Source: Microbacterium protaetiae
GTDB taxonomy: Bacteria > Actinomycetota > Actinomycetes > Actinomycetales > Microbacteriaceae
DNA length: 64,000 nt
Direction: 5' to 3'
Assembly: GCF_004135285.1 (NCBI RefSeq)
Contig: NZ_CP035494.1
Span: 2,480,001 to 2,544,000, forward strand
The notes under the pieces were generated by a model, which had not been told where the DNA came from, searched no databases, and saw only the letters and a list, made by a program, of their open reading frames with translations. The first letter of the stretch is position 1, and every line of letters begins with the position of its first letter. The translations under genes and the position numbers were made by a program. Shown piece after piece: positions 1 through 10,957 of this stretch.

Positions 1-246
1 CATGTCGATGACGCCGGTGCCCACCTCGATGCGCGTGGTCTTCGCCGCGATCGCGGCCAGGAGCGGCATCGGCGAGGAGTGCTGCTTCGCGAAATGGTGC
101 ACACGGAAATACGTGCCGTCGACCCCGAGCTCGTCCATCTGCTGGGCGAGGTCGATGGCCTGATGAAGATTGTCGCCCGCGGTCAAGTGACGGCCGCCGC
201 CGAGCGGGCCGTAGTGACCGAACGAGAGCGTTCCGAAGCGCTGCAT
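1..246 (-). CDS. LLM-class flavin-dependent oxidoreductase (N-terminal part)
   Basis: The first 82 codons of a gene that runs off the left edge. It starts at the ATG complementary to 244-246. The protein begins MQRFGTLSFGHYGPLGGGR and continues through an alternating helix/strand segment ending in RIEVGTGVIDM, which matches the first beta strands of the bacterial luciferase-like (LLM) TIM barrel. Members use FMN or F420 to oxidise small substrates; the substrate cannot be told from this fragment. It is divergent from the DUF1361 gene, with about 80 bp between the two starts. Confidence 0.75.
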   Translation of the reverse strand, partial: MQRFGTLSFGHYGPLGGGRHLTAGDNLHQAIDLAQQMDELGVDGTYFRVHHFAKQHSSPMPLLAAIAAKTTRIEVGTGVIDM

Positions 247-324
247 GGTGGATCCAACGGTACCTGCGATCGGTGTATTCCACTGAATGGATGCTGCGCG
301 GCATCCGCTCACTATCGTGGACAA

Positions 325-1044
325 GTGATCATCATCGCGGCGTTTGCAGCCGTCGTGCTCCTCAACGTCTACGCCGCGGTGCTGATCGCGCTGCGCGCAC
401 TCGTGTACCGGGTGCCGATGTACCGGCCGATGCTGCTGAACATCGTGCTGTCGTTCGTGCCCGTCGTGGTCGCCGTGCTCGGGGTGGTCGGCCTGCTCGC
501 GATCGGTGCGGTCGGTGCAGGGGCCGACCCGCCGTCGGGACTGGGCATCCTGCTCTGGGTGTTCCTGGTGGTCGGCACTCTGGCGTGGGTGCTGTTCTTT
601 CCGAACGCCATCTATCTCATCACGGAGCTCAACTTCAGTCATCGGCGCGACGACGACCCGGTGCCGCTCTGGTTCGACATCGTGCAGACGCTCACGCTGA
701 CGCTGTCGGGCATCGCCAATGCGGTGCTGAGCATGGGTGTGGTCGAGTCGATGTTCACGATCGTGGTGTTCGACGCGTCCGAGGGCATTCCGCTGGCGAG
801 CTGGGTGTTCGCCGGCGTGGTGATAGTGCTGGGTGCCATCGGCGTCTATCTGGGACGGTACCTGCGGTTCAACAGTTGGGACGTGCGGCATCCGTTCGGG
901 ATGCTGCGCAAGCTGCGCACGCACTTCGCCCAGCGAGGCAAGGCGCTCGAGGCATTCGGCTTCGTGCTCACGCACGCGGTGCTGATAGCGCTCGTCTACG
1001 TGCCGATCTACCTGCTCGCGTATCAGGCGCTGCGGGTGGGGTGA
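325..1044 (+). CDS. DUF1361 family integral membrane protein
   Basis: A 239-residue protein rich in hydrophobic segments (about six to seven predicted membrane helices). Its central FFPNAIYLITELNF segment and following WFD motif fit the DUF1361 family of uncharacterised membrane proteins. I place the start at GTG 325, just before the first hydrophobic helix (VIIIAAFAAVVLLNVYAAV). Upstream codons in the same frame overlap the divergent oxidoreductase gene and look non-coding. The 3' end overlaps the convergent DUF3054 gene by 22 bp. Function unknown. Confidence 0.7.
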   Translation: MIIIAAFAAVVLLNVYAAVLIALRALVYRVPMYRPMLLNIVLSFVPVVVAVLGVVGLLAIGAVGAGADPPSGLGILLWVFLVVGTLAWVLFFPNAIYLITELNFSHRRDDDPVPLWFDIVQTLTLTLSGIANAVLSMGVVESMFTIVVFDASEGIPLASWVFAGVVIVLGAIGVYLGRYLRFNSWDVRHPFGMLRKLRTHFAQRGKALEAFGFVLTHAVLIALVYVPIYLLAYQALRVG

Positions 1045-1397
1045 GCGCGGCGCGCGAGGAGCGCGGCGACCACGCGCCACCCTACGAGGGTCAGGAGCAA
1101 GAACACCCCGGCGACGAGGATGAACGGCAGCGCCGTGCCCTGCGCGCTGGCCACGCGCAGCAGCATCCCGCCCGCCAGCGTCACCGCCCACAGCGGCAAG
1201 CCCGTGCGCACCGGGCGCGTCGGCGCTCGCCAGGCGAACAGGGCGGCCCAGCCGACCAGCAGCGCTGCCAAGAAGGGCCAGGCGGTCGTGGCGATGCCGC
1301 CCAGATCGAGGTGCTCGCCGTGACTGGCGCGGCCGATGATCGCGAAGACCAGCACGATGACAATGTCGGCCACGAACGACCAGACGGCGCGTGTCAT
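1023..1397 (-). CDS. DUF3054 family membrane protein
   Basis: A 124-residue protein with four hydrophobic helices. It begins MTRAVWSFVADIVIVLVFAI and contains the RASHGE segment after helix 1 that is typical of DUF3054. The start at 1397 is preferred over an in-frame ATG seven codons upstream because AGAGGGG lies just upstream of it. The IS110 copy A core lies about 58 bp upstream of this start, so the insertion may have separated the gene from its native promoter. Function unknown. Confidence 0.7.
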   Translation of the reverse strand: MTRAVWSFVADIVIVLVFAIIGRASHGEHLDLGGIATTAWPFLAALLVGWAALFAWRAPTRPVRTGLPLWAVTLAGGMLLRVASAQGTALPFILVAGVFLLLTLVGWRVVAALLARRAHPTRSA

Positions 1398-1459
1398 GAG
1401 AACCCCTCTTTTCGGCATCCGTCCATTCTCCCAGGCGCTCGCGCGTTCAGAACTCAGCT

Positions 1460-1715
1460 ATGCGCGGCGGGGTGGGCCGTGGTGGATGGGAAATGTGGTG
1501 AGGTGGTCGCCTCTTGTGGTGCGGTCGCGAGGCGCGGATGCTGTTGGTAGCTGGTGGCTGATGCCGATTCAACTGTGGTGCGGAAAGTCCGTGACTCAGC
1601 TTGGTACGGGAAGCCGCCACGGGACCCGTGGATTGTCGCCTTAGAGCACGCGCGTCAGACTCCTGACCTTTCTGGCTCCCCGCCACCAGTAGTGAACAGG
1701 TGAGAGGAGATTGGG
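1460..1715 (+). ncRNA. Candidate bridge RNA region of IS110 copy A
   Basis: The 256-bp noncoding left end, almost identical in all three copies. Visible foldable parts in order: CGCCTC/GAGGCG (1508-1513 with 1529-1534); a bulged hairpin of about 1580-1620 with inner stem CCGT/ACGG whose loop contains ACTCAGCT (1594-1601); CCACGGG/CCCGTGG (1617-1631); and GTCAG/CTGAC (1654-1667). ACTCAGCT equals the left target flank plus core (AGAACT-CAGCT) and not the donor junction (ACACGT-CAGCT), so it could be a target guide. CGTCAG at 1653-1658 resembles the donor end. RNA expression and exact ends are inferred from known IS110 bridge RNAs. Confidence 0.5.
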
Positions 1716-2942
1716 ATGGATCTGTTGCATCCTCGAGCGGCGGGGATCGATATCTCAAAGAGGGATGCCAAGGTAGCCATTCGGGTGCAGTCCGAGGGTG
1801 GGAAGGTGTCCACGCAGGTCACGACGTGGGGCTCGATGACGGGTCAGGTCCTCGAACTCGCCGATTTCCTGCGCTCGCAGGGGGTGACCACGGTGGTGAT
1901 GGAAGCGACCAGTGATTACTGGAAGCCGTTCTACTATCCGATGGAAGCGACCGGGCTGCCAGTGATGCTCGTCAACGCCCGGCAGGCCAGGAACATCCCG
2001 GGCCGGAAGTCGGACGTGTCTGATGCGGCATGGCTGGCGGATCTGGGTGCGCACGGGCTGTTGCGGGCCTCGTTCGTGCCCGCGCCGGATATCCGCCGGT
2101 TGCGGGACCTGACCCGGGCCCGTCAGATGCTCGTCCATGACCGCACCCGGGTCAAGCAGCGGTTGGAGAAGTCGCTGGAATCGTCCGGCACGAAACTGTC
2201 CGTCGTGGTGGCCGATTTGAATGGTGTCTCCGCGCGCCGGATGCTGGACGCGCTCGTGGCCGGGGAACGGGACCCCCGCTCGCTTGCCGCGCTCGCGCAC
2301 CCGCGCATGAGAGCGACCCAGGACGAGTTGGCCGCCGCGCTTACCGGCAGGTTCACGGAACATGACGCGTTCATGGTCGGCCAGCACCTGACGCACTACG
2401 ACTTGCTCACCGGTCAGATCGATGCGCTCACGGCGCGTATCGAGGAGGAGATCGCGCCCTTTCGTCTCGCCCGGGAGCTGTTGACCACGATCCCGGGAAT
2501 CGCGGAACCGACCGCTGATGTGATCATCGCCGAGACCGGCGGGGACATGTCGATCTTCCCGACCGCGGCCCACCTCGCGTCCTGGGCGGGTGTATCGCCC
2601 GGGATGCACGAGTCCGCCGGGAAACGGAAATCGAGCACCACCCGGCCCGGGAACCGTTACCTCAAAGAAGCGCTCGGCAACGCAGCCAGCAGCAACGCGA
2701 AGAAGGGCTCCAACACGTACCTCGCTCGCCGTCAACGCCGCATCTCCGCGCGCCGCGGGAAAATGCGAGCCCTCGTAGCCACCGAACACGCGATCCTTAC
2801 CGCGGTATGGAACATGCTCTCCCGCGGCGAAGCATTCACCGATCTGACACCCCCGCCAGCGAATACCGAACGCCAGAAGAAATCGCACCTCCGAGCACTC
2901 GAACACCTCGGCTACAAAGTCACCCTCGCACCCGCCGCCTGA
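1716..2942 (+). CDS. IS110-family DEDD transposase (copy A)
   Basis: A 408-residue recombinase. The N-terminal RuvC-like DEDD domain shows D12 in GIDISK, E63 in VVMEATSDYW, and D100/D103 in KSDVSDAAWLADL. A coiled-coil linker follows (about 205-250). The C-terminal Tnp domain has the TTIPGIAEPTADVIIAE stretch and the SAGK segment near S300, the expected nucleophile. The start ATG follows GAGAGGAGATTGGG. The ORF is intact. It differs from copies B and C by only a few substitutions (copy B has AILNAVWN where A and C have AILTAVWN), so spread was recent. Confidence 0.95.
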   Translation: MDLLHPRAAGIDISKRDAKVAIRVQSEGGKVSTQVTTWGSMTGQVLELADFLRSQGVTTVVMEATSDYWKPFYYPMEATGLPVMLVNARQARNIPGRKSDVSDAAWLADLGAHGLLRASFVPAPDIRRLRDLTRARQMLVHDRTRVKQRLEKSLESSGTKLSVVVADLNGVSARRMLDALVAGERDPRSLAALAHPRMRATQDELAAALTGRFTEHDAFMVGQHLTHYDLLTGQIDALTARIEEEIAPFRLARELLTTIPGIAEPTADVIIAETGGDMSIFPTAAHLASWAGVSPGMHESAGKRKSSTTRPGNRYLKEALGNAASSNAKKGSNTYLARRQRRISARRGKMRALVATEHAILTAVWNMLSRGEAFTDLTPPPANTERQKKSHLRALEHLGYKVTLAPAA

Positions 2943-3089
2943 CCCAACCAGGAGCAGCCCGCACGTTCCCCATTTACACGTCAGAAGAAATCGCACCTCC
3001 GAGCACTCGAACACCTCGGCTACAAAGTCACCCTCGCACCCGCCGCCTGACCCAACCAGGAGCAGCCCGCACGTTCCCCATTTACACGT
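2874..3089 (+). repeat. 108-bp tandem duplication of the IS110 right end
   Basis: Units 2874-2981 and 2982-3089 are identical. Each covers the last codons of the transposase, the stop codon and the right terminus ending in TTTACACGT. The junction is at CAG, which occurs both as the start of the core (CAGCT) and inside the gene (CAGAAGAAATCG). Copies B and C carry a single unit. Confidence 0.95.
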
Positions 3090-3094
3090 CAGCT

Positions 3095-3368
3095 CATTTC
3101 GGCCGCGACTCACAGTTGGGGCGTGTTTTGGGTGGGCTGGCGGCGGTTTGGGCTGAGTTCTGATCGCGGATCAAAGCGGCTCGGTGCCGGTGCCCTCGCC
3201 GCCGGCCGCCCCGGCGGGGCATCCGGGCGTCTGGCTCCCGGCGCCCGCAGCCCCGCCCGATGTCCCCGGCGGCCCTCCGCTCCATCGCGGTCCGCGCGTT
3301 CAGGACTCAGCCGAAAGCGCGCGCGGCCGCGCCGATGCGGCCGTTCTGACCCCGCGGCGCGCCCGATG
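3095..3368. other. Intergenic gap between IS110 copies A and B
   Basis: Contains no convincing gene. It holds two unoccupied relatives of the IS target motif: TCAGAACTCAGCCC on the minus strand (about 3147-3160) and TTCAGGACTCAGCC on the plus strand (3299-3312). When the B/C dimer is removed in thought, the reading frame of the AbiEi-like gene enters this segment from its right edge and runs about 22 more codons (from HRARRG) to a TGA near 3300. Confidence 0.6.
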
Positions 3369-3412
3369 AGCTGACGTGTAAATGGGGAACGTGCGGGCTG
3401 CTCCTGGTTGGG

Positions 3413-4639
3413 TCAGGCGGCGGGTGCGAGGGTGACTTTGTAGCCGAGGTGTTCGAGTGCTCGGAGGTGCGATTTCTTCTGGCGTTCGGTATTCGCTGGC
3501 GGGGGTGTCAGATCGGTGAATGCTTCGCCGCGGGAGAGCATGTTCCATACCGCGTTAAGGATCGCGTGTTCGGTGGCTACGAGGGCTCGCATTTTCCCGC
3601 GGCGCGCGGAGATGCGGCGTTGACGGCGGGCGAGGTACGTGTTGGAGCCCTTCTTCGCGTTGCTGCTGGCTGCGTTGCCGAGCGCTTCTTTGAGGTAACG
3701 GTTCCCGGGCCGGGTGGTGCTCGATTTCCGTTTCCCGGCGGACTCGTGCATCCCGGGCGATACACCCGCCCAGGACGCGAGGTGGGCCGCGGTCGGGAAG
3801 ATCGACATGTCCCCGCCGGTCTCGGCGATGATCACATCAGCGGTCGGTTCCGCGATTCCCGGGATCGTGGTCAACAGCTCCCGGGCGAGACGAAAGGGCG
3901 CGATCTCCTCCTCGATACGCGCCGTGAGCGCATCGATCTGACCGGTGAGCAAGTCGTAGTGCGTCAGGTGCTGGCCGACCATGAACGCGTCATGTTCCGT
4001 GAACCTGCCGGTAAGCGCGGCGGCCAACTCGTCCTGGGTCGCTCTCATGCGCGGGTGCGCGAGCGCGGCAAGCGAGCGGGGGTCCCGTTCCCCGGCCACG
4101 AGCGCGTCCAGCATCCGGCGCGCGGAGACACCATTCAAATCGGCCACCACGACGGACAGTTTCGTGCCGGACGATTCCAGCGACTTCTCCAACCGCTGCT
4201 TGACCCGGGTGCGGTCATGGACGAGCATCTGACGGGCCCGGGTCAGGTCCCGCAACCGGCGGATATCCGGCGCGGGCACGAACGAGGCCCGCAACAGCCC
4301 GTGCGCACCCAGATCCGCCAGCCATGCCGCATCAGACACGTCCGACTTCCGGCCCGGGATGTTCCTGGCCTGCCGGGCGTTGACGAGCATCACTGGCAGC
4401 CCGGTCGCTTCCATCGGATAGTAGAACGGCTTCCAGTAATCACTGGTCGCTTCCATCACCACCGTGGTCACCCCCTGCGAGCGCAGGAAATCGGCGAGTT
4501 CGAGGACCTGACCCGTCATCGAGCCCCACGTCGTGACCTGCGTGGACACCTTCCCACCCTCGGACTGCACCCGAATGGCTACCTTGGCATCCCTCTTTGA
4601 GATATCGATCCCCGCCGCTCGAGGATGCAACAGATCCAT
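3413..4639 (-). CDS. IS110-family DEDD transposase (copy B)
   Basis: Intact 408-residue recombinase, essentially identical to copy A (see that entry for residues). Differences seen: Thr to Asn in AILNAVWNM near the C-terminus, and a silent or near-silent change in the region coding for the preceding Arg-rich helix. The same ribosome-binding sequence precedes the start. Confidence 0.95.
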   Translation of the reverse strand: MDLLHPRAAGIDISKRDAKVAIRVQSEGGKVSTQVTTWGSMTGQVLELADFLRSQGVTTVVMEATSDYWKPFYYPMEATGLPVMLVNARQARNIPGRKSDVSDAAWLADLGAHGLLRASFVPAPDIRRLRDLTRARQMLVHDRTRVKQRLEKSLESSGTKLSVVVADLNGVSARRMLDALVAGERDPRSLAALAHPRMRATQDELAAALTGRFTEHDAFMVGQHLTHYDLLTGQIDALTARIEEEIAPFRLARELLTTIPGIAEPTADVIIAETGGDMSIFPTAAHLASWAGVSPGMHESAGKRKSSTTRPGNRYLKEALGNAASSNAKKGSNTYLARRQRRISARRGKMRALVATEHAILNAVWNMLSRGEAFTDLTPPPANTERQKKSHLRALEHLGYKVTLAPAA

Positions 4640-4895
4640 CCCAATCTCCTCTCACCTGTTCACTACTGGTGGCGGGGAGCCAGAAAGGTCAGGAGTCTGA
4701 CGCGCGTGCTCTAAGGCGACAATCCACGGGTCCCGTGGCGGCTTCCCGTACCAAGCTGAGTCACGGACTTTCCGCACCACAGTTGAATCGGCATCAGCCA
4801 CCAGCTACCAACAGCATCCGCGCCCCGCGACCGCACCACAAGAGGCGACCACCTCACCACATTTCCCATCCACCACGGCCCACCCCGCCGCGCAT
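4640..4895 (-). ncRNA. Candidate bridge RNA region of IS110 copy B
   Basis: Left noncoding end of copy B, matching copy A at nearly every base. One visible change is CCCCGCGACC where A and C have CCTCGCGACC (plus-strand view of the minus-strand copies). The ACTCAGCT-bearing hairpin is conserved. Because the left end abuts the right end of copy C, the junction could also form a promoter, as reported for circular or tandem IS110 forms; this is inference. Confidence 0.45.
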
Positions 4896-4900
4896 AGCTG
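4896..4900 (-). other. Shared CAGCT core joining IS110 copies C and B
   Basis: The right end of copy C (TTTACACGT) is joined to the left end of copy B (ATGCGCGG) through a single CAGCT. This is the sequence expected of an IS110 right-end/left-end junction, normally seen in the excised circle. Confidence 0.85.
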
Positions 4901-4939
4901 ACGTGTAAATGGGGAACGTGCGGGCTGCTCCTGGTTGGG

Positions 4940-6166
4940 TCAGGCGGCGGGTGCGAGGGTGACTTTGTAGCCGAGGTGTTCGAGTGCTCGGAGGTGCGAT
5001 TTCTTCTGGCGTTCGGTATTCGCTGGCGGGGGTGTCAGATCGGTGAATGCTTCGCCGCGGGAGAGCATGTTCCATACCGCGGTAAGGATCGCGTGTTCGG
5101 TGGCTACGAGGGCTCGCATTTTCCCGCGGCGTGCGGAGATGCGGCGTTGACGGCGGGCGAGGTACGTGTTGGAGCCCTTCTTCGCGTTGCTGCTGGCTGC
5201 GTTGCCGAGCGCTTCTTTGAGGTAACGGTTCCCGGGCCGGGTGGTGCTCGATTTCCGTTTCCCGGCGGACTCGTGCATCCCGGGCGATACACCCGCCCAG
5301 GACGCGAGGTGGGCCGCGGTCGGGAAGATCGACATGTCCCCGCCGGTCTCGGCGATGATCACATCAGCGGTCGGTTCCGCGATTCCCGGGATCGTGGTCA
5401 ACAGCTCCCGGGCGAGACGAAAGGGCGCGATCTCCTCCTCGATACGCGCCGTGAGCGCATCGATCTGACCGGTGAGCAAGTCGTAGTGCGTCAGGTGCTG
5501 GCCGACCATGAACGCGTCATGTTCCGTGAACCTGCCGGTAAGCGCGGCGGCCAACTCGTCCTGGGTCGCTCTCATGCGCGGGTGCGCGAGCGCGGCAAGC
5601 GAGCGGGGGTCCCGTTCCCCGGCCACGAGCGCGTCCAGCATCCGGCGCGCGGAGACACCATTCAAATCGGCCACCACGACGGACAGTTTCGTGCCGGACG
5701 ATTCCAGCGACTTCTCCAACCGCTGCTTGACCCGGGTGCGGTCATGGACGAGCATCTGACGGGCCCGGGTCAGGTCCCGCAACCGGCGGATATCCGGCGC
5801 GGGCACGAACGAGGCCCGCAACAGCCCGTGCGCACCCAGATCCGCCAGCCATGCCGCATCAGACACGTCCGACTTCCGGCCCGGGATGTTCCTGGCCTGC
5901 CGGGCGTTGACGAGCATCACTGGCAGCCCGGTCGCTTCCATCGGATAGTAGAACGGCTTCCAGTAATCACTGGTCGCTTCCATCACCACCGTGGTCACCC
6001 CCTGCGAGCGCAGGAAATCGGCGAGTTCGAGGACCTGACCCGTCATCGAGCCCCACGTCGTGACCTGCGTGGACACCTTCCCACCCTCGGACTGCACCCG
6101 AATGGCTACCTTGGCATCCCTCTTTGAGATATCGATCCCCGCCGCTCGAGGATGCAACAGATCCAT
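4940..6166 (-). CDS. IS110-family DEDD transposase (copy C)
   Basis: Intact 408-residue recombinase; its protein sequence matches copy A at every residue compared, and the DNA has only isolated differences (for example GCGTGCGGAG near 5130). Catalytic D12, E63, D100, D103 and the S300 region are all present. It ends 40 bp before the shared core. Confidence 0.95.
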   Translation of the reverse strand: MDLLHPRAAGIDISKRDAKVAIRVQSEGGKVSTQVTTWGSMTGQVLELADFLRSQGVTTVVMEATSDYWKPFYYPMEATGLPVMLVNARQARNIPGRKSDVSDAAWLADLGAHGLLRASFVPAPDIRRLRDLTRARQMLVHDRTRVKQRLEKSLESSGTKLSVVVADLNGVSARRMLDALVAGERDPRSLAALAHPRMRATQDELAAALTGRFTEHDAFMVGQHLTHYDLLTGQIDALTARIEEEIAPFRLARELLTTIPGIAEPTADVIIAETGGDMSIFPTAAHLASWAGVSPGMHESAGKRKSSTTRPGNRYLKEALGNAASSNAKKGSNTYLARRQRRISARRGKMRALVATEHAILTAVWNMLSRGEAFTDLTPPPANTERQKKSHLRALEHLGYKVTLAPAA

Positions 6167-6422
6167 CCCAATCTCCTCTCACCTGTTCACTACTGGTGGC
6201 GGGGAGCCAGAAAGGTCAGGAGTCTGACGCGCGTGCTCTAAGGCGACAATCCACGGGTCCCGTGGCGGCTTCCCGTACCAAGCTGAGTCACGGACTTTCC
6301 GCACCACAGTTGAATCGGCATCAGCCACCAGCTACCAACAGCATCCGCGCCTCGCGACCGCACCACAAGAGGCGACCACCTCACCACATTTCCCATCCAC
6401 CACGGCCCACCCCGCCGCGCAT
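6167..6422 (-). ncRNA. Candidate bridge RNA region of IS110 copy C
   Basis: Left noncoding end of copy C, same hairpins as copy A, including the loop with ACTCAGCT. Its outer 40 bp are also translated as the replacement C-terminus of the interrupted upstream gene. Confidence 0.45.
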
Positions 6423-7307
6423 AGCTGAGTTCTGAACATCGATACGGTAGGGCGGGTGGGCGAGTACCTGTTTGAGCATGGCGAGGACTTTCTCGGGGTT
6501 GTAGAGAATGTCCTCGGCGATGGGCCGGATGGTCACATATCCTTGTGCGGCCGCGGCGAAGTCCCGCCGGCGATCGCGCTTCTCGTTGTCCCAGCCCTCG
6601 TGGTACTTCTTGCTGTCGCACTCGACGATGAGCCATCCGTCGACGACGAAGTCCACCCGCCCGACCCCACGGATCTCCACTTGCACGTCAACGTGGCAGC
6701 CCAGACCCCGCAGCATCAGGCGCATGAGCGACTCGGGTCCCGACTCGGCGCGCCTGTCGAGCAGTGCGCGCAGCCGCCGGTAGCGGCGCGGCAGCAGGTC
6801 GAACACCCGCTTCACCTTCTCTTCGTCGACGACGCCGTGATGCCACGCGCTGTCGAGGGTGGCGATGGCTTCGCGCAGTGATTGACACCGGAACGACTGT
6901 GCGAGCGCCTCGACCACATCGGCTGTCAGATGGCCTCGATCGCGCGACGAGCGTCGCCAGTGCCGCACGACGCTTTCGTCTGGTGCGGGAAGCCGGGTCG
7001 AACCGTGTTCGACCTGCACGTGCAGCCGATCGTGGGTGTGGACGAAGATGCCGATGGCTCTCAACAGCGAGATGCAGTCGAGCCGCGCCCCCAGCCGGCC
7101 GGCACGCACGAGATCGACGCTCATTCCGGTCTTCACATACCGCCCGTTCCGCAGTCGGATGAGTTCGCCGTTGGCCACGAGGTGGGCGATGTGCCGCGCA
7201 CGGATGCCCTCATCGATGAGGGCCGCGCGGCTCAGGAACGTGATCGGACGAATCTCCTCCGCCAGCTCGCGCGGCGTCTTCTCTTCTTCTTCTTCTTCTG
7301 CTGCCAT
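6381..7307 (-). CDS. AbiEi-like/DUF559-type protein with IS-derived C-terminus
   Basis: A 308-residue protein. Residues about 18-60 form a small winged-helix (FLSRAALIDEGIRARHIAHLVANGELIRLRNGRYV), like AbiEi antitoxin N-terminal domains. The C-terminal third (GLGCHVDVQVEIRGVGRVDFVVDGWLIVECDSKKYHEG...RD) matches the Vsr/restriction-like DUF559 fold, with D-x(n)-ExDSKKYH as the likely metal site. These proteins are common in Microbacteriaceae; a DNA-binding or nuclease role is inferred, not shown. The last about 13 residues (MRGGVGRGGWEMW) come from the left end of IS110 copy C, so the native C-terminus is lost. The N-terminus carries a run of acidic residues (AAEEEEEEK). Confidence 0.7.
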   Translation of the reverse strand: MAAEEEEEEKTPRELAEEIRPITFLSRAALIDEGIRARHIAHLVANGELIRLRNGRYVKTGMSVDLVRAGRLGARLDCISLLRAIGIFVHTHDRLHVQVEHGSTRLPAPDESVVRHWRRSSRDRGHLTADVVEALAQSFRCQSLREAIATLDSAWHHGVVDEEKVKRVFDLLPRRYRRLRALLDRRAESGPESLMRLMLRGLGCHVDVQVEIRGVGRVDFVVDGWLIVECDSKKYHEGWDNEKRDRRRDFAAAAQGYVTIRPIAEDILYNPEKVLAMLKQVLAHPPYRIDVQNSAMRGGVGRGGWEMW

Positions 7308-7449
7308 GTCCCCATGACACTCACCCCGGGCCCCGCGCGGGGCGCGTGGGACGAATCTGTGGACAAGTCAGCGGGATGCCGCGGCTGGGGAGGAAACGGT
7401 GCGACGACGGTCGTCGTGGCTCGGCGACAGCTCGGCGAGGCGATCAGAA
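7308..7449. other. Upstream region of the AbiEi-like gene
   Basis: About 140 bp without a gene between the AbiEi-like start and the 55-bp repeat array. No clear promoter hexamers were recognised. Confidence 0.4.
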
Positions 7450-7697
7450 CTCATCCCATCCGCGCGGATCGGGCCCGATCGGGCGCCGCACGGCGCCCCG
7501 GTGCGATGGATGGGATGAGTTTTGAACGCACGGCACGGCGCCGCACGGCGCCCCGGCGCGATGGATGGGATGAGTGTTGAACGCACGGCACGGCGCCGGA
7601 CGGCGCCCCGGTGCGATGGATGGGATGAGTTTTGAACGCACGGCACGGTGCCGCACGGCGCCCCGGCGCGATGGGTGGGCTGAGTTTGAAACGCCAG
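7450..7697. repeat. 55-bp tandem repeat array (about four units)
   Basis: Units begin at about 7505, 7560, 7615 and 7670, spaced exactly 55 bp, with a divergent partial unit to the left. On the minus strand each unit contains GTTCAAAACTCATCCCATC or a close variant; the last reads TTTCAAACTCAGCCCACC. This is related to the GTTCAGAACTCAGCTCAT target of the IS110 elements. The rest is GC-rich with the short palindrome GGCGCC. No unique spacers, so not CRISPR. Confidence 0.9.
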
Positions 7698-7734
7698 TGC
7701 GCCCCACCGCCTCGACGCACCCGAGCTCGGCGCG

Positions 7735-8883
7735 CTACAGCCCGGCCTGACGCGCAGCGACAACCTCGCGCACGCGCGCGTAGAGGGGGTGGGATGCCGC
7801 GAGTCCGGTGACCTCGGCCGTGAAGGCGTCGGCATCCTGCTCGCGCAGCATGCGCTGCAGATCGACCGACTGCGGGTCTTCGGGGTCGTCGAAGGCCAGC
7901 GCGGCGCCGATGGCATCGACCAGCGCACCGACCGACAGCCCTCGCTCGGCGGCCTCGGCCGCCGGCCCGACGAACCGTTCGTGCCGCGACAGCTTGCGCA
8001 GCGGCTGACGTCCTACCCGCCACACGGTGTCGGGCAGTGCCGGGTTTCGGAAGCGGCCCAGGATCGTCGTGCGGTACTCGGCAAGATCGGCCGGGTCGAG
8101 GCCGTGCTTGGCCGCCAGCAGGGCCGAGGTCTCTTCGAGCGCGGCGGCGACATGCGTCTCGATCGCCTCGTCGGCCAGGGCGTCCGAGATCCGATCGATT
8201 CCGGCGGCAGCGCCGAAGTACGCTGTTGTCGCGTGGCCGGTGTTGACGGTGAACAGCTTGCGCTCGATGTAGGGCGCGAGGTCGGGCACGAAGTGCGCGC
8301 CGGGCAGGTGCGGCGGGTTCTCGCCGAACGGTGGAAGCTCGATCGCCCATTCGTAGAACGGCTCGACCGTGACATCCACCCCTGCACCCTCGGGCTGGGC
8401 GGGAACTATCCGGTCCACGGCGGTATTGGCGAACACCGCCCGCCCGGCCAGCGCAGCCCAGTCGTCGCCGGCGAGGGCGATGATCTCATTGCGCAGCACA
8501 TCGGTCGCGCCGATCGCGTTCTCGCACGCCATCACCTGCAGAGGGGCGGATGCCGCATCCCGCCGCCGCAGCCCCGCGAGCACCAGCGGCGCCACGAACT
8601 TCAGGATCGTCGGCCCGACCGCCGTGGTCACGACGTCGGCGGCAGCCACCTCGTCGGCGACCTCGTCGGGGTGGTGCGCACTGTTTATCGCGCGGAACCC
8701 GGTCACCACCGTGTCGCCACCGCCGTCGCCCACCGCGTGCACGGTGTACGAGTCGACGGCGTTTATCGCGTCGACCAGGGCGCCGGCGACATCGGAGAAG
8801 ACCAGCTCATACCCGCCCTCGTGCAGCAGCAGTCCGACGAAGCCGCGCCCGATGTTGCCGGCGCCGAAGTGGACGGCCTTCAT
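7735..8883 (-). CDS. mtlD: Mannitol-1-phosphate 5-dehydrogenase
   Basis: A 382-residue cytosolic enzyme that oxidises mannitol 1-phosphate to fructose 6-phosphate with NAD. The N-terminus MKAVHFGAGNIGRGFVG carries the dinucleotide-binding loop. The TGHATTAYFG segment and the KLFTVNTGH stretch are typical of the polyol-specific long-chain dehydrogenase family. Its ATG overlaps the mtlF stop by 4 bp (ATGA), so it is translationally coupled as the last gene of the mannitol operon. Length is normal for MtlD. Confidence 0.95.
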   Translation of the reverse strand: MKAVHFGAGNIGRGFVGLLLHEGGYELVFSDVAGALVDAINAVDSYTVHAVGDGGGDTVVTGFRAINSAHHPDEVADEVAAADVVTTAVGPTILKFVAPLVLAGLRRRDAASAPLQVMACENAIGATDVLRNEIIALAGDDWAALAGRAVFANTAVDRIVPAQPEGAGVDVTVEPFYEWAIELPPFGENPPHLPGAHFVPDLAPYIERKLFTVNTGHATTAYFGAAAGIDRISDALADEAIETHVAAALEETSALLAAKHGLDPADLAEYRTTILGRFRNPALPDTVWRVGRQPLRKLSRHERFVGPAAEAAERGLSVGALVDAIGAALAFDDPEDPQSVDLQRMLREQDADAFTAEVTGLAASHPLYARVREVVAARQAGL

Positions 8884-9320
8884 GACTCGTTCACACTTGC
8901 CAGCATCGCGAACAGCTCCTCGGGCGACGTGGCCGCCTTCAGACGCGCCACGTCGTCTTCTTCAGAGAACACCAGCGCGATCTGGGAGAGGATCTCGAGG
9001 TGCTCGTCGCCCTTGCCGGCGATGCCGATGACGAACGTCACCGGCTCGCCGCCCCAGTCCACACCCCCGTCGTAGCGCACGACCGAGAGCGCCGAGTCGA
9101 GGATCGTCTCCTTCGTCTCGTTCGTGCCGTGCGGAATCGCCAGCTCGTTGCCCATGTAGGTCGACACGGTCTGCTCGCGCTGCTGCATAGCGTCGTAGTA
9201 GGTGCTGGTGACGGCGCCGGCGGCCTCGAGAATGTCGGCGGCCTCCTTCATCGCCTGCTCTTGCGTGGCGCCGTCGGAGTGGATGCGCACCTGCCCCACG
9301 GTGAGAACCTCGTGTGCCAT
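8880..9320 (-). CDS. mtlF: PTS mannitol-specific EIIA component
   Basis: A 146-residue EIIA of the fructose/mannitol class. It receives phosphate from HPr on H64 (NELAIPHGTNE) and passes it to the EIIB domain of MtlA. The start ATG at 9320 begins MAHEVLTVGQVRI. It lies between mtlA and mtlD in one minus-strand operon, with 83 bp separating it from mtlA. EIIA is separate from EIICB, as in other Gram-positive mannitol systems. Confidence 0.95.
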   Translation of the reverse strand: MAHEVLTVGQVRIHSDGATQEQAMKEAADILEAAGAVTSTYYDAMQQREQTVSTYMGNELAIPHGTNETKETILDSALSVVRYDGGVDWGGEPVTFVIGIAGKGDEHLEILSQIALVFSEEDDVARLKAATSPEELFAMLASVNES

Positions 9321-9403
9321 CTCTGTCGCCTTCCCTTCGTCGTATGAAGCCGAGGCCACGGGACCGGGGGCGTTACGCCCGCCCGGCCCCGCAGCGGTTT
9401 CGG

Positions 9404-10957
9404 TTACTGCCCATCCTGGTGCTGCGAGCGCACCAGGTCCACGACCTCGTCGTACTTCGGCGAGTTCATGAAGTTGTCCACAGAGACGTGGACGGCATCG
9501 GGTGCCTGGGCCTTGGCGCGCTCGGTGAGCTGGTTCTGCGTGATGACCAGGTCGGCCGAGCCGTCGAGGTTCGCGATGGCCTTGTTGACCACGGTGACCC
9601 CGTCGATGCCCGCCTTCTTGATCTTGTTGCGCAGCACACTCGCGCCCATCGCTGACGAGCCCATACCCGCGTCGCACGCGAACACGATGCTGTTGACGGT
9701 GCGCTCGGCGACGTCGGTTGCTCCGGCGGCGGCACCGGCCGCGCTGCCGCGCAGACCCGCCAGGGCCTCGGACGACTTGCCCTTGTTGGCCTCGGTCTGG
9801 CTGATGGCGCTGCTGAACGCGTCGCTGCCGGCCGCCTCGGCGGCGAGGTCCTTCTTGCGCGAGGCGCGCAGGATGATGGCCGCGACGATGAACGTCACGG
9901 CTGCCGAGAGGATCACCGACAAGATCACGCCCAGATAGTCGGTCTGGTATGTCTGCGCTATCACTGCGATGATGCTGCCTGGCGCGGCGGGCGCTCGAAG
10001 GCCGGTGTTGAAGATCACGTTCGTGGTGACGCCGGTCATACCGCCCAGGATCAGCGCGATGATCAGCGTCGGCTTCATCAGTGCGAAGGGGAAGTAGACC
10101 TCGTGGATGCCGCCGATGAACTGGATGACGGCAGCACCGGGGGCCGACGCCTTGGCCGCACCGATCCCGAAGATCGTGAACGCCAGCAGCAGTCCGACAC
10201 CGGGGCCGGGGTTGGCCTCGAGCAGGAACAGGATCGACTTGTGTGCCGGGCCGGTGGCCTGCTCCAGTCCCAGCGGAGTGAGCACGCCGTGGTTGACGGC
10301 GTTGTTCAGGAAGAACACCTTCGCGGGTTCGATGAGAATGCTCGTCAAGGGCAGAAGGTGCGCCGAGACCAGCCAGTTCACCGCGGCGCTGAGGATGTTC
10401 ATCAGGCCGTTGACCAGCCACGCGATCGGGTAGAACCCGAGGATGGCCAGCGCGAAGCCCCAGATGCCTGCCGAGAACATGTTCACGAGCATCTCGAAGC
10501 CGGCCTTGATCTTGTTCTCCCACAGCTTGTCGAGCCACTTCATCGAGTAGCCGGCGATGGGGGCCATGATCATCGCGCCGATGAACATGTGGATCTGGCC
10601 GAGCTGGTTGTCGGCGGGCTGGGTCAGGTTGTACTGCGCGATGAGGTAATCCGACCCGGCGATGACGCCGAAGGTCGCTATCGCGGCGACGACACCACCA
10701 CGCACCTGGTAGACGATGTGACCGCCGGTGTAGGCGATCAGGATCGGCAGCAGGTAGTGGATCATCGGACCCACGATCGTCGACAGCGCCGCCACCGGAG
10801 TCCACCCCACGTCTATGAAGAACGCGGTGAAGATGCCCCAGGCGATCAACGCCGGGATGTTCGGCATGATCATGCCGGAGAGGAACGTGCCGAATCGCTG
10901 AACGCCGACTCGGACCCCTCCCTTGCCCGCTGCTGCGGGAACGGACGCCGTTGTCAT
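9404..10957 (-). CDS. mtlA: PTS mannitol-specific EIICB permease
   Basis: A 517-residue membrane transporter that imports mannitol and phosphorylates it. Residues about 15-370 are the EIIC membrane domain (starts QRFGTFLSGMIMPNIPALIAWG; contains NNAVNHGVLTPLG and the GGIHEVYFP substrate motif). A linker follows and then the EIIB domain, with its phosphocysteine at C428 in VFACDAGMGSS. The start ATG is preceded by GAAAGAGAC. EIIA is encoded by the next gene. Encoded 32 bp after ptsI. Confidence 0.95.
   Translation of the reverse strand: MTTASVPAAAGKGGVRVGVQRFGTFLSGMIMPNIPALIAWGIFTAFFIDVGWTPVAALSTIVGPMIHYLLPILIAYTGGHIVYQVRGGVVAAIATFGVIAGSDYLIAQYNLTQPADNQLGQIHMFIGAMIMAPIAGYSMKWLDKLWENKIKAGFEMLVNMFSAGIWGFALAILGFYPIAWLVNGLMNILSAAVNWLVSAHLLPLTSILIEPAKVFFLNNAVNHGVLTPLGLEQATGPAHKSILFLLEANPGPGVGLLLAFTIFGIGAAKASAPGAAVIQFIGGIHEVYFPFALMKPTLIIALILGGMTGVTTNVIFNTGLRAPAAPGSIIAVIAQTYQTDYLGVILSVILSAAVTFIVAAIILRASRKKDLAAEAAGSDAFSSAISQTEANKGKSSEALAGLRGSAAGAAAGATDVAERTVNSIVFACDAGMGSSAMGASVLRNKIKKAGIDGVTVVNKAIANLDGSADLVITQNQLTERAKAQAPDAVHVSVDNFMNSPKYDEVVDLVRSQHQDGQ

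Follow-up and report, generated by a model that had tools for sequence, protein, structure and literature searches.

Pairing of a bridge RNA with the insertion site and with the ends of its own element is a known principle of IS110-family transposition. In the open-access text of PMC11208160 and PMC11208158, the bridge RNA of IS621 has its left target guide in the 5' position, its right target guide in the 3' position and a CT core. According to the accessible text of PMC11187229, the top-strand match lies 3' of the bottom-strand match in ISEc21 and 5' of it in IS1111 members, an opposite guide order between the two groups that rests on one element of IS110 type and four of IS1111 type. Palindromic repeats have already been reported as targets of other IS110 members (PMC1525189, available text). 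The left-end segment of the element described here is very probably a bridge RNA, and differs from the best-studied examples in a reversed order of its target guides.

The IS110-family element and its relatives

The window, as the whole 64,000-nucleotide stretch of Microbacterium protaetiae DNA analysed is called here, harbours three of the seven copies that the element has in its own genome:

1458 to 1715, + strand: noncoding left end (LE) of IS copy 1, 99-100% identical between copies; its first bases, CT, are the right donor (RD)
1716 to 2942, + strand: IS110-family recombinase gene of copy 1, 408 aa (PF01548, PF02371, NF033542, remote ISCro4/IS621 match)
2943 to 2984, + strand: RE, the right end of copy 1; contains the left donor TTTACACGTCAG and the core AG at 2983-2984
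2985 to 3092, + strand: 108-bp direct duplication of the copy 1 tail (2877-2984), terminated by a second RE end; the true right flank starts at 3093
3371 to 4897, - strand: IS copy 2, with the recombinase at 3413-4639 and the guide ACTCAGCT at 4754-4761
4898 to 6424, - strand: IS copy 3, head-to-tail with copy 2, with the recombinase at 4940-6166 and the guide at 6281-6288

The recombinase features an N-terminal DEDD RuvC-like domain (PF01548, E 2.3e-26) and a C-terminal Transposase_20 domain (PF02371, E 3.9e-20), scores 253.9 bits against NF033542 (cut-off 140) and shows remote similarity to the structures of ISCro4 and IS621. The noncoding ends of the element measure 258 nt upstream of the recombinase gene versus 42 nt at the right end. 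Nucleotides 4898-4899, between copies 2 and 3, are the AG core of the RE-LE (donor) junction.

The tail duplication of copy 1 (2877-3092) has its head-to-tail joint at an internal CCAG, which has CAG in common with the donor core. Such an arrangement would fit an element that inserted into another copy and then recombined, or a plain tandem duplication. The right end is also present twice running in a Rhodococcus relative (L093), with the core at the end of each. Three close-set copies at 344.6-349.6 kb of genome G000 (L002-L004) have near-identical left flanks and right flanks that are all different.

When 58 genomes, the own one and those of relatives, were searched with the left-end DNA, the own genome alone had it (1/58). 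Protein searches for relatives gave matches in 3/398, 2/396, 5/394 and 8/396 genomes, the own genome being included every time and the cut-offs differing between searches, and none was found in the viral contigs searched. In a large protein set 7,812 of 7,999 scored candidates pass E 1e-60; the recombinase family is therefore common.

The set used for covariation comprises 33 element types with both ends located, thinned to 27 representatives; the close relatives L065, L066, L068, L081, L093 and L096 stand outside these 27. Plasmid relatives were taken in as 29 records, from 60 of the 109 matching. Elements removed as repeats were L062 (the same as L063), L055, L057 and L059 (copies of L053), L069 and L071 (copies of L072) and L088 (the same as L077). 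Also removed were L070, whose flank is masked, L073, L082, L083 and L094, each with one end not found, the partial elements L011-L013, and L010 and L097, whose ends or guides are unclear. The donor guide of L010 looked poor and L097 is without clear guides, and both count against the bridge RNA reading. Ends of single-copy elements were set by eye, with AG-N-YCC and TTTTC as motifs, at a stage when guide matches were already apparent; flank divergence aided end placement in three multi-copy families of seven, four and three copies. The relatives in the set are not independent of each other.

Target site and AG core

The target sequence flanks the left end of copy 1:

1446 to 1457, + strand: left half of the target (LT) beside copy 1, with the motif TTCARRACTCAGC, ending in the core AG (1456-1457)

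The genome has 34 occurrences of TTCARRACTCAGC versus 0 for the same pattern read backwards, and 6 of the 34 are left junctions of IS copies. The left flank is GTTCARAACTCAG at six of the seven copies, the seventh being the tandem joint. Several TTCARRACTCAGC occurrences form inverted pairs about 70 bp apart, and at each of the three insertions inspected the right flank has the inverted arm, which identifies the target as a palindromic repeat of the genome.

At the right junctions of the genome copies CAG is followed by CTCAT four times and by GAGCG, CCGAA and AAGAA once each, the AAGAA junction being the inner joint of the copy 1 tail duplication. CAG alone is common to every right junction, which places the exchange point within it. 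The dinucleotide common across the relatives is AG, with a TG core in L084. A CT core, the first assumption of this analysis, was rejected because three right junctions have only CAG in common with the donor. The IS621-type CT core is absent from the gene strand, where the elements used have AG. The initial annotation had likewise let the core end in CT; the CT concerned, at 1600-1601, matches instead the left end of the element itself in what would be a handshake (see below).

Targets of several relatives could also be delimited. Four copies in a genome of another genus of the same family (L053, L055, L057 and L059 in G141) lie in the repeat TCATTATTCAGGAG with inverted arms nearby, and their left guide is TTATTCAG. 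L064, L068, L081 and L082 have a common left-flank target, CCGCAGGTCAG. A tRNA end was considered as the identity of CCGCAGGTCAG and rejected, since ARAGORN reports one tRNA in the 8 loci (Gly, L082 2954-3029) and the other seven are without support; this tRNA is close to the target site of the L082 element. The Streptomyces plasmid element L077/L088, whose left guide is CGCGTCAG, is positioned directly after TATTTACGCGTCAG, which has the same sequence as the last 14 nt of the right end in the L064-L066 type, and is apparently a case of one IS110 element programmed against the end of another. The diverged elements L009 and L095 have both flanks near-identical (CCAACCCGCGNATATCAG, TGACCGCGCGTCGA), occupying the same site with similar left guides.

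Putative guides, handshake bases and stems in the left end

The following features are assigned to the left end, mostly by comparison across elements:

1541 to 1699, + strand: candidate bridge RNA, with predicted ends set by the closing stem and delimited by comparison with relatives
1550 to 1558 (1541-1545 outside it), + strand: 5' arm of the closing stem P1, pairing with 1682-1690 and 1695-1699 (covariation z 7.8)
1567 to 1574, + strand: position of the right target guide (RTG), ATTCAACT, from covariation across elements; ends in CT, the complement of the core AG
1591 to 1599, + strand: left target guide (LTG), GTGACTCAG, ending in the core AG; 5/6 non-core positions match in the window element
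1600 to 1601, + strand: CT of the target-loop handshake, identical to the two bases with which the own left end begins
1608 to 1616, + strand: 5' arm of stem P2, pairing with 1673-1681 (covariation z 4.8)
1617 to 1631, + strand: conserved hairpin CCACGGGACCCGTGG, from alignments
1650 to 1658, + strand: left donor guide (LDG), GCGCGTCAG, ending in the core AG, from covariation
1673 to 1690, + strand: 3' arms of P2 (1673-1681) and P1 (1682-1690), from covariation and the minimum-energy fold

The window contains ACTCAGCT five times versus 1.35 expected, a count reached in 0 of 100 shuffles. All five occurrences are within or at the three IS copies, three as guide (1594, 4754 and 6281) and two as target/left-end junction (1452 and 6423). 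CGTCAG, with 50 occurrences versus 67 expected, is uninformative alone. Target and donor have TCAG in common (TCAGCT once the left end is included), so that in the window element ACTCAGCT tells one from the other by just two bases. Support for the putative guide function comes from the cross-element comparison and not from the window copy.

The initial annotation had placed ACTCAGCT at 1594-1601, presented by a bulged hairpin, and CGTCAG near 1654 in a second hairpin. The first position is confirmed and the second motif is located at 1653-1658, with a small hairpin at 1654-1667; the minimum-energy fold has a hairpin at 1562-1606. The proposal of an IS110 bridge RNA whose first loop is for the target and the second for the donor, in that order, agrees with the covariation of both loops with their own DNA. 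Covariation of the loop with the target in homologues, which had been put forward as the check, was assessed on the 33 element types (27 non-redundant) and left the proposal unrefuted. The claim that ACTCAGCT fits the target and not the donor holds in that LTG covaries with the target, with the reservation on the two discriminating bases given above.

An unguided scan of the 27 elements, in which RNA column, DNA 6-mer and strand were varied over 12,096 combinations, yielded 23 combinations at z > 4, all lying on five diagonals: LTG with LT (z 12.7), LDG with the left donor LD (11.6), the bases after LTG with RD (6.6), the bases after LDG with the right target RT (5.5), and RTG with the complement of RT (5.0). 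LTG matches its own target at 5.37 of 6 positions and the targets of other elements at 2.59, while LDG matches its own right end at 5.26 of 6 and those of others at 3.18 (0/20,000 permutations in each case). For each of the two guides 25 of the 27 elements score 5-6. One element of the 33, L066, has a guide mismatched to its flank (1/6). No z > 4 was obtained in the 27-element scan for a right donor guide (RD complement), a test weakened by the conservation of RD among relatives. The thinning and the cognate controls argue against common descent alone as the source of the covariation. In five Bacillota and Pseudomonadota elements (41-42% identity) considered post hoc, LTG scores 5.20 versus 2.50 and LDG 6.00 versus 3.55 of 6. 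The predicted main guides, LTG and LDG, extend to these phyla, the weaker signals being unconfirmed in so small a set.

RTG is found in the 27-element scan about 30 alignment columns 5' of LTG. Its score at the fixed column is 3.59 versus 2.68. When anchored on CU, an anchor selected after the fixed-column result, the first four nt score 2.74 versus 1.62 (z 6.5) and six nt 3.74 versus 2.51 (0/20,000 permutations for all three). RTG pairs at 5-6 of 6 positions in only 10 of the 27 elements; pairing is 8/8 in L060 and L063 (G-U counted) and 7/8 in L009 and L090, and in the window element pairing with the right target at the L005 insertion is limited to 4/8 positions. Of the five later elements four are testable for RTG and average 3.00 versus 2.25, with one at 6/6 and three at 2. 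A right guide 3' of LTG (1602-1650) was considered and dropped, as no consistent match was seen by eye and the scan puts the right guide 5'. The predicted order of the target guides, right then left, is the reverse of that in IS621 and ISEc21 and is the IS1111 order.

The two bases after LTG match the own left end (RD) at 1.67 versus 0.68 of 2 (0/20,000 permutations) and give no match with the right target, which served as cognate control (0.30 versus 0.43). This handshake to the left end explains why the ACTCAGCT match continues through CT. The two bases after LDG match RT at 1.07 versus 0.60 (1/20,000 permutations), with no match to the donor as cognate control (0.19 versus 0.36). Handshake guides are described likewise for IS621, on the other side of the core, in the accessible text of PMC11208158. 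The five later elements give 1.80 versus 1.10 of 2 for the target-loop handshake, and the four of them testable for the donor-loop handshake gave no signal (1.00 versus 1.06).

Folding energies are ordinary for 1579-1667 alone (z 0.47), for 1530-1715 (z 0.25) and for the whole left end (z 1.08). The fold of 1541-1699 (z -1.40; 15/200 shuffles equally or more stable) contains the closing stem, the bulged hairpin 1562-1606 with ACTCAGCT and a GUCAG/CUGAC hairpin at 1654-1667 with CGTCAG. Trimming the RNA at P1 gives a minimum-energy fold with P1, P2, an arm with the two target guides and a hairpin with the donor guide. Folding energy by itself would not establish the predicted hairpins, which are supported by the comparison with relatives. 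Stems were compared region versus region because the MAFFT columns missed the 3' stem arms; the intended controls of this test overlap the true arms and are not clean (A-D z 2.8, C-B z 8.4). A search of window positions 1-10000 with Rfam gave no model at the gathering score and four microRNA models below threshold.

Proposed recombination mechanism and related systems

It is highly likely, in view of the computed guide/DNA covariation, the stems, the AG core and the repeat target, that the left end codes for a bridge RNA directing a mirror image of IS621 recombination at AG. The RNA would be transcribed from the left end and bound by the recombinase. The arm inside stem P2 would hold the guide 1650-1658 for the right end of the element, and a right donor guide may complete this set. 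The recombinase would then bring the palindromic repeat GTTCARAACTCAG together with the RE-LE junction of a circular form, and strands would be exchanged at the dinucleotide AG. After exchange, the two bases 3' of each 3' guide would pair with the other partner, as a handshake. On the opposite strand AG reads as CT, the 5' guide becomes the left guide (left-then-right order) and the handshake falls in its IS621 places; the simplest reading is therefore that the chemistry is that of IS621, with CT as core on the opposite strand and the element ends flipped relative to the bridge RNA.

A standard IS621-type bridge RNA, with a CT core, the left guide 5' and the right guide 3', would make ACTCAGCT the left guide including its CT core. 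CT does follow CAG in the guide of the window element, at its left end and at four of the right junctions (CTCAT...), and the target loop precedes the donor loop as in IS621. This assignment is nevertheless very unlikely: the right junctions CAG-GAGCG, CAG-CCGAA and CAG-AAGAA are without CT, the guide bases after AG track the own left end and not the target in the 33 elements, and none of the 23 combinations at z > 4 corresponds to a right guide 3' of the left one. It is hardly credible that the target is chosen by protein-DNA contact or homology and that the ACTCAGCT match is due to chance or is a flank fossil. The insignificant single-copy fold energies and the six bases that the 8-mer ACTCAGCT has in common with the donor/left-end junction would be in line with such an origin, but guide and flank co-vary down to 41% recombinase identity, which neither chance nor one inherited motif gives, and close relatives had been thinned to 27 representatives.

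The mirror order might also be real and be due to an IS1111 lineage in which the RNA was relocated upstream, and not to IS110-type elements with flipped ends. The top-then-bottom order is that reported for IS1111 in the open text of PMC11187229, and the two ends show, as an IS1111-like trait, covariation of the subterminal inverted repeat ATTTTC/GAAAAT (z 4.8; 0/3,000). Against this origin, the same text gives 395-455 aa for the IS110 subgroup, which the 408 aa of the recombinase fit, and 330-350 aa for IS1111, which they do not. The subterminal inverted repeats are mostly of 6-8 bp, with 14 bp in L067, and of 5 bp at best in the window element, the IS1111 criterion being 7-17 bp. An IS1111 lineage is a doubtful explanation, with some claim to attention.

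A wider proposition, slightly more likely than not, is that a mirror-image bridge RNA serves a broad group of IS110-type elements, here observed in Actinomycetota, Bacillota and Pseudomonadota, and combines the upstream RNA of IS110 with the guide order and core polarity of IS1111 and with a handshake swapped to match. The literature comparison covers open-access text, and an earlier depiction of the reversed order is possible, for instance in ISAar29 and others (Extended Data Fig. 10, PMC11208160). If true, the wider proposition would add a third architecture, in which guide order is uncoupled from the RNA position to which the literature ties it, and would show that donor ends can flip relative to the guide RNA with the chemistry, CT on one strand, being kept. 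Bridge RNAs are under development as programmable recombinases; if upstream-RNA elements can carry the IS1111 order, RNA position does not dictate guide order, and guides designed for this group by IS621 rules would address the wrong strand and use the wrong core. Handshake covariation in the mirrored place is independent support for the handshake model, and the window supplies a natural seven-copy case with a palindromic repeat target.

In the accessible text of PMC11208160 and PMC11208158, IS621 resembles the window element in its upstream noncoding end, target loop before donor loop, core within the guides and repeat (REP) targets. Common to both are also guides to the bottom strand of the left side and to the top strand of the right side, and a handshake with the non-cognate partner. 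Compared with this description, the window element differs from IS621 in its gene-strand core (AG and not CT), in having RTG 5' of LTG, in that the donor guide detected is the left one, on the 3' side, and in a handshake that involves the right-hand donor and target, where IS621 uses the left-hand ones. Its recombinase has 408 aa versus 328 in the IS621 PDB chain.

IS1111-type seekRNAs (ISEc11, ISPa11 and ISKpn4), as presented in the open text of PMC11187229, have like the window element a top-strand match 5' of the bottom-strand match; they also have covarying subterminal inverted repeats, to which the repeat that covaries across the elements compared here may correspond. Their RNA is downstream of a shorter transposase gene, whereas that of the window element is upstream. 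The ISEc21 seekRNA of the same text is IS110-type and upstream of the gene, as in the window element, with the opposite order, its top-strand match being 3' of the bottom-strand match. ISArsp3 (a name taken from plasmid annotation; L062/L063) has a 57% identical recombinase, the same scaffold and an AG core. Its left guide AAGTGAG fits its own flank and its right guide pairs 8/8 including G-U, while the letters of its target and donor differ from those of the window element.
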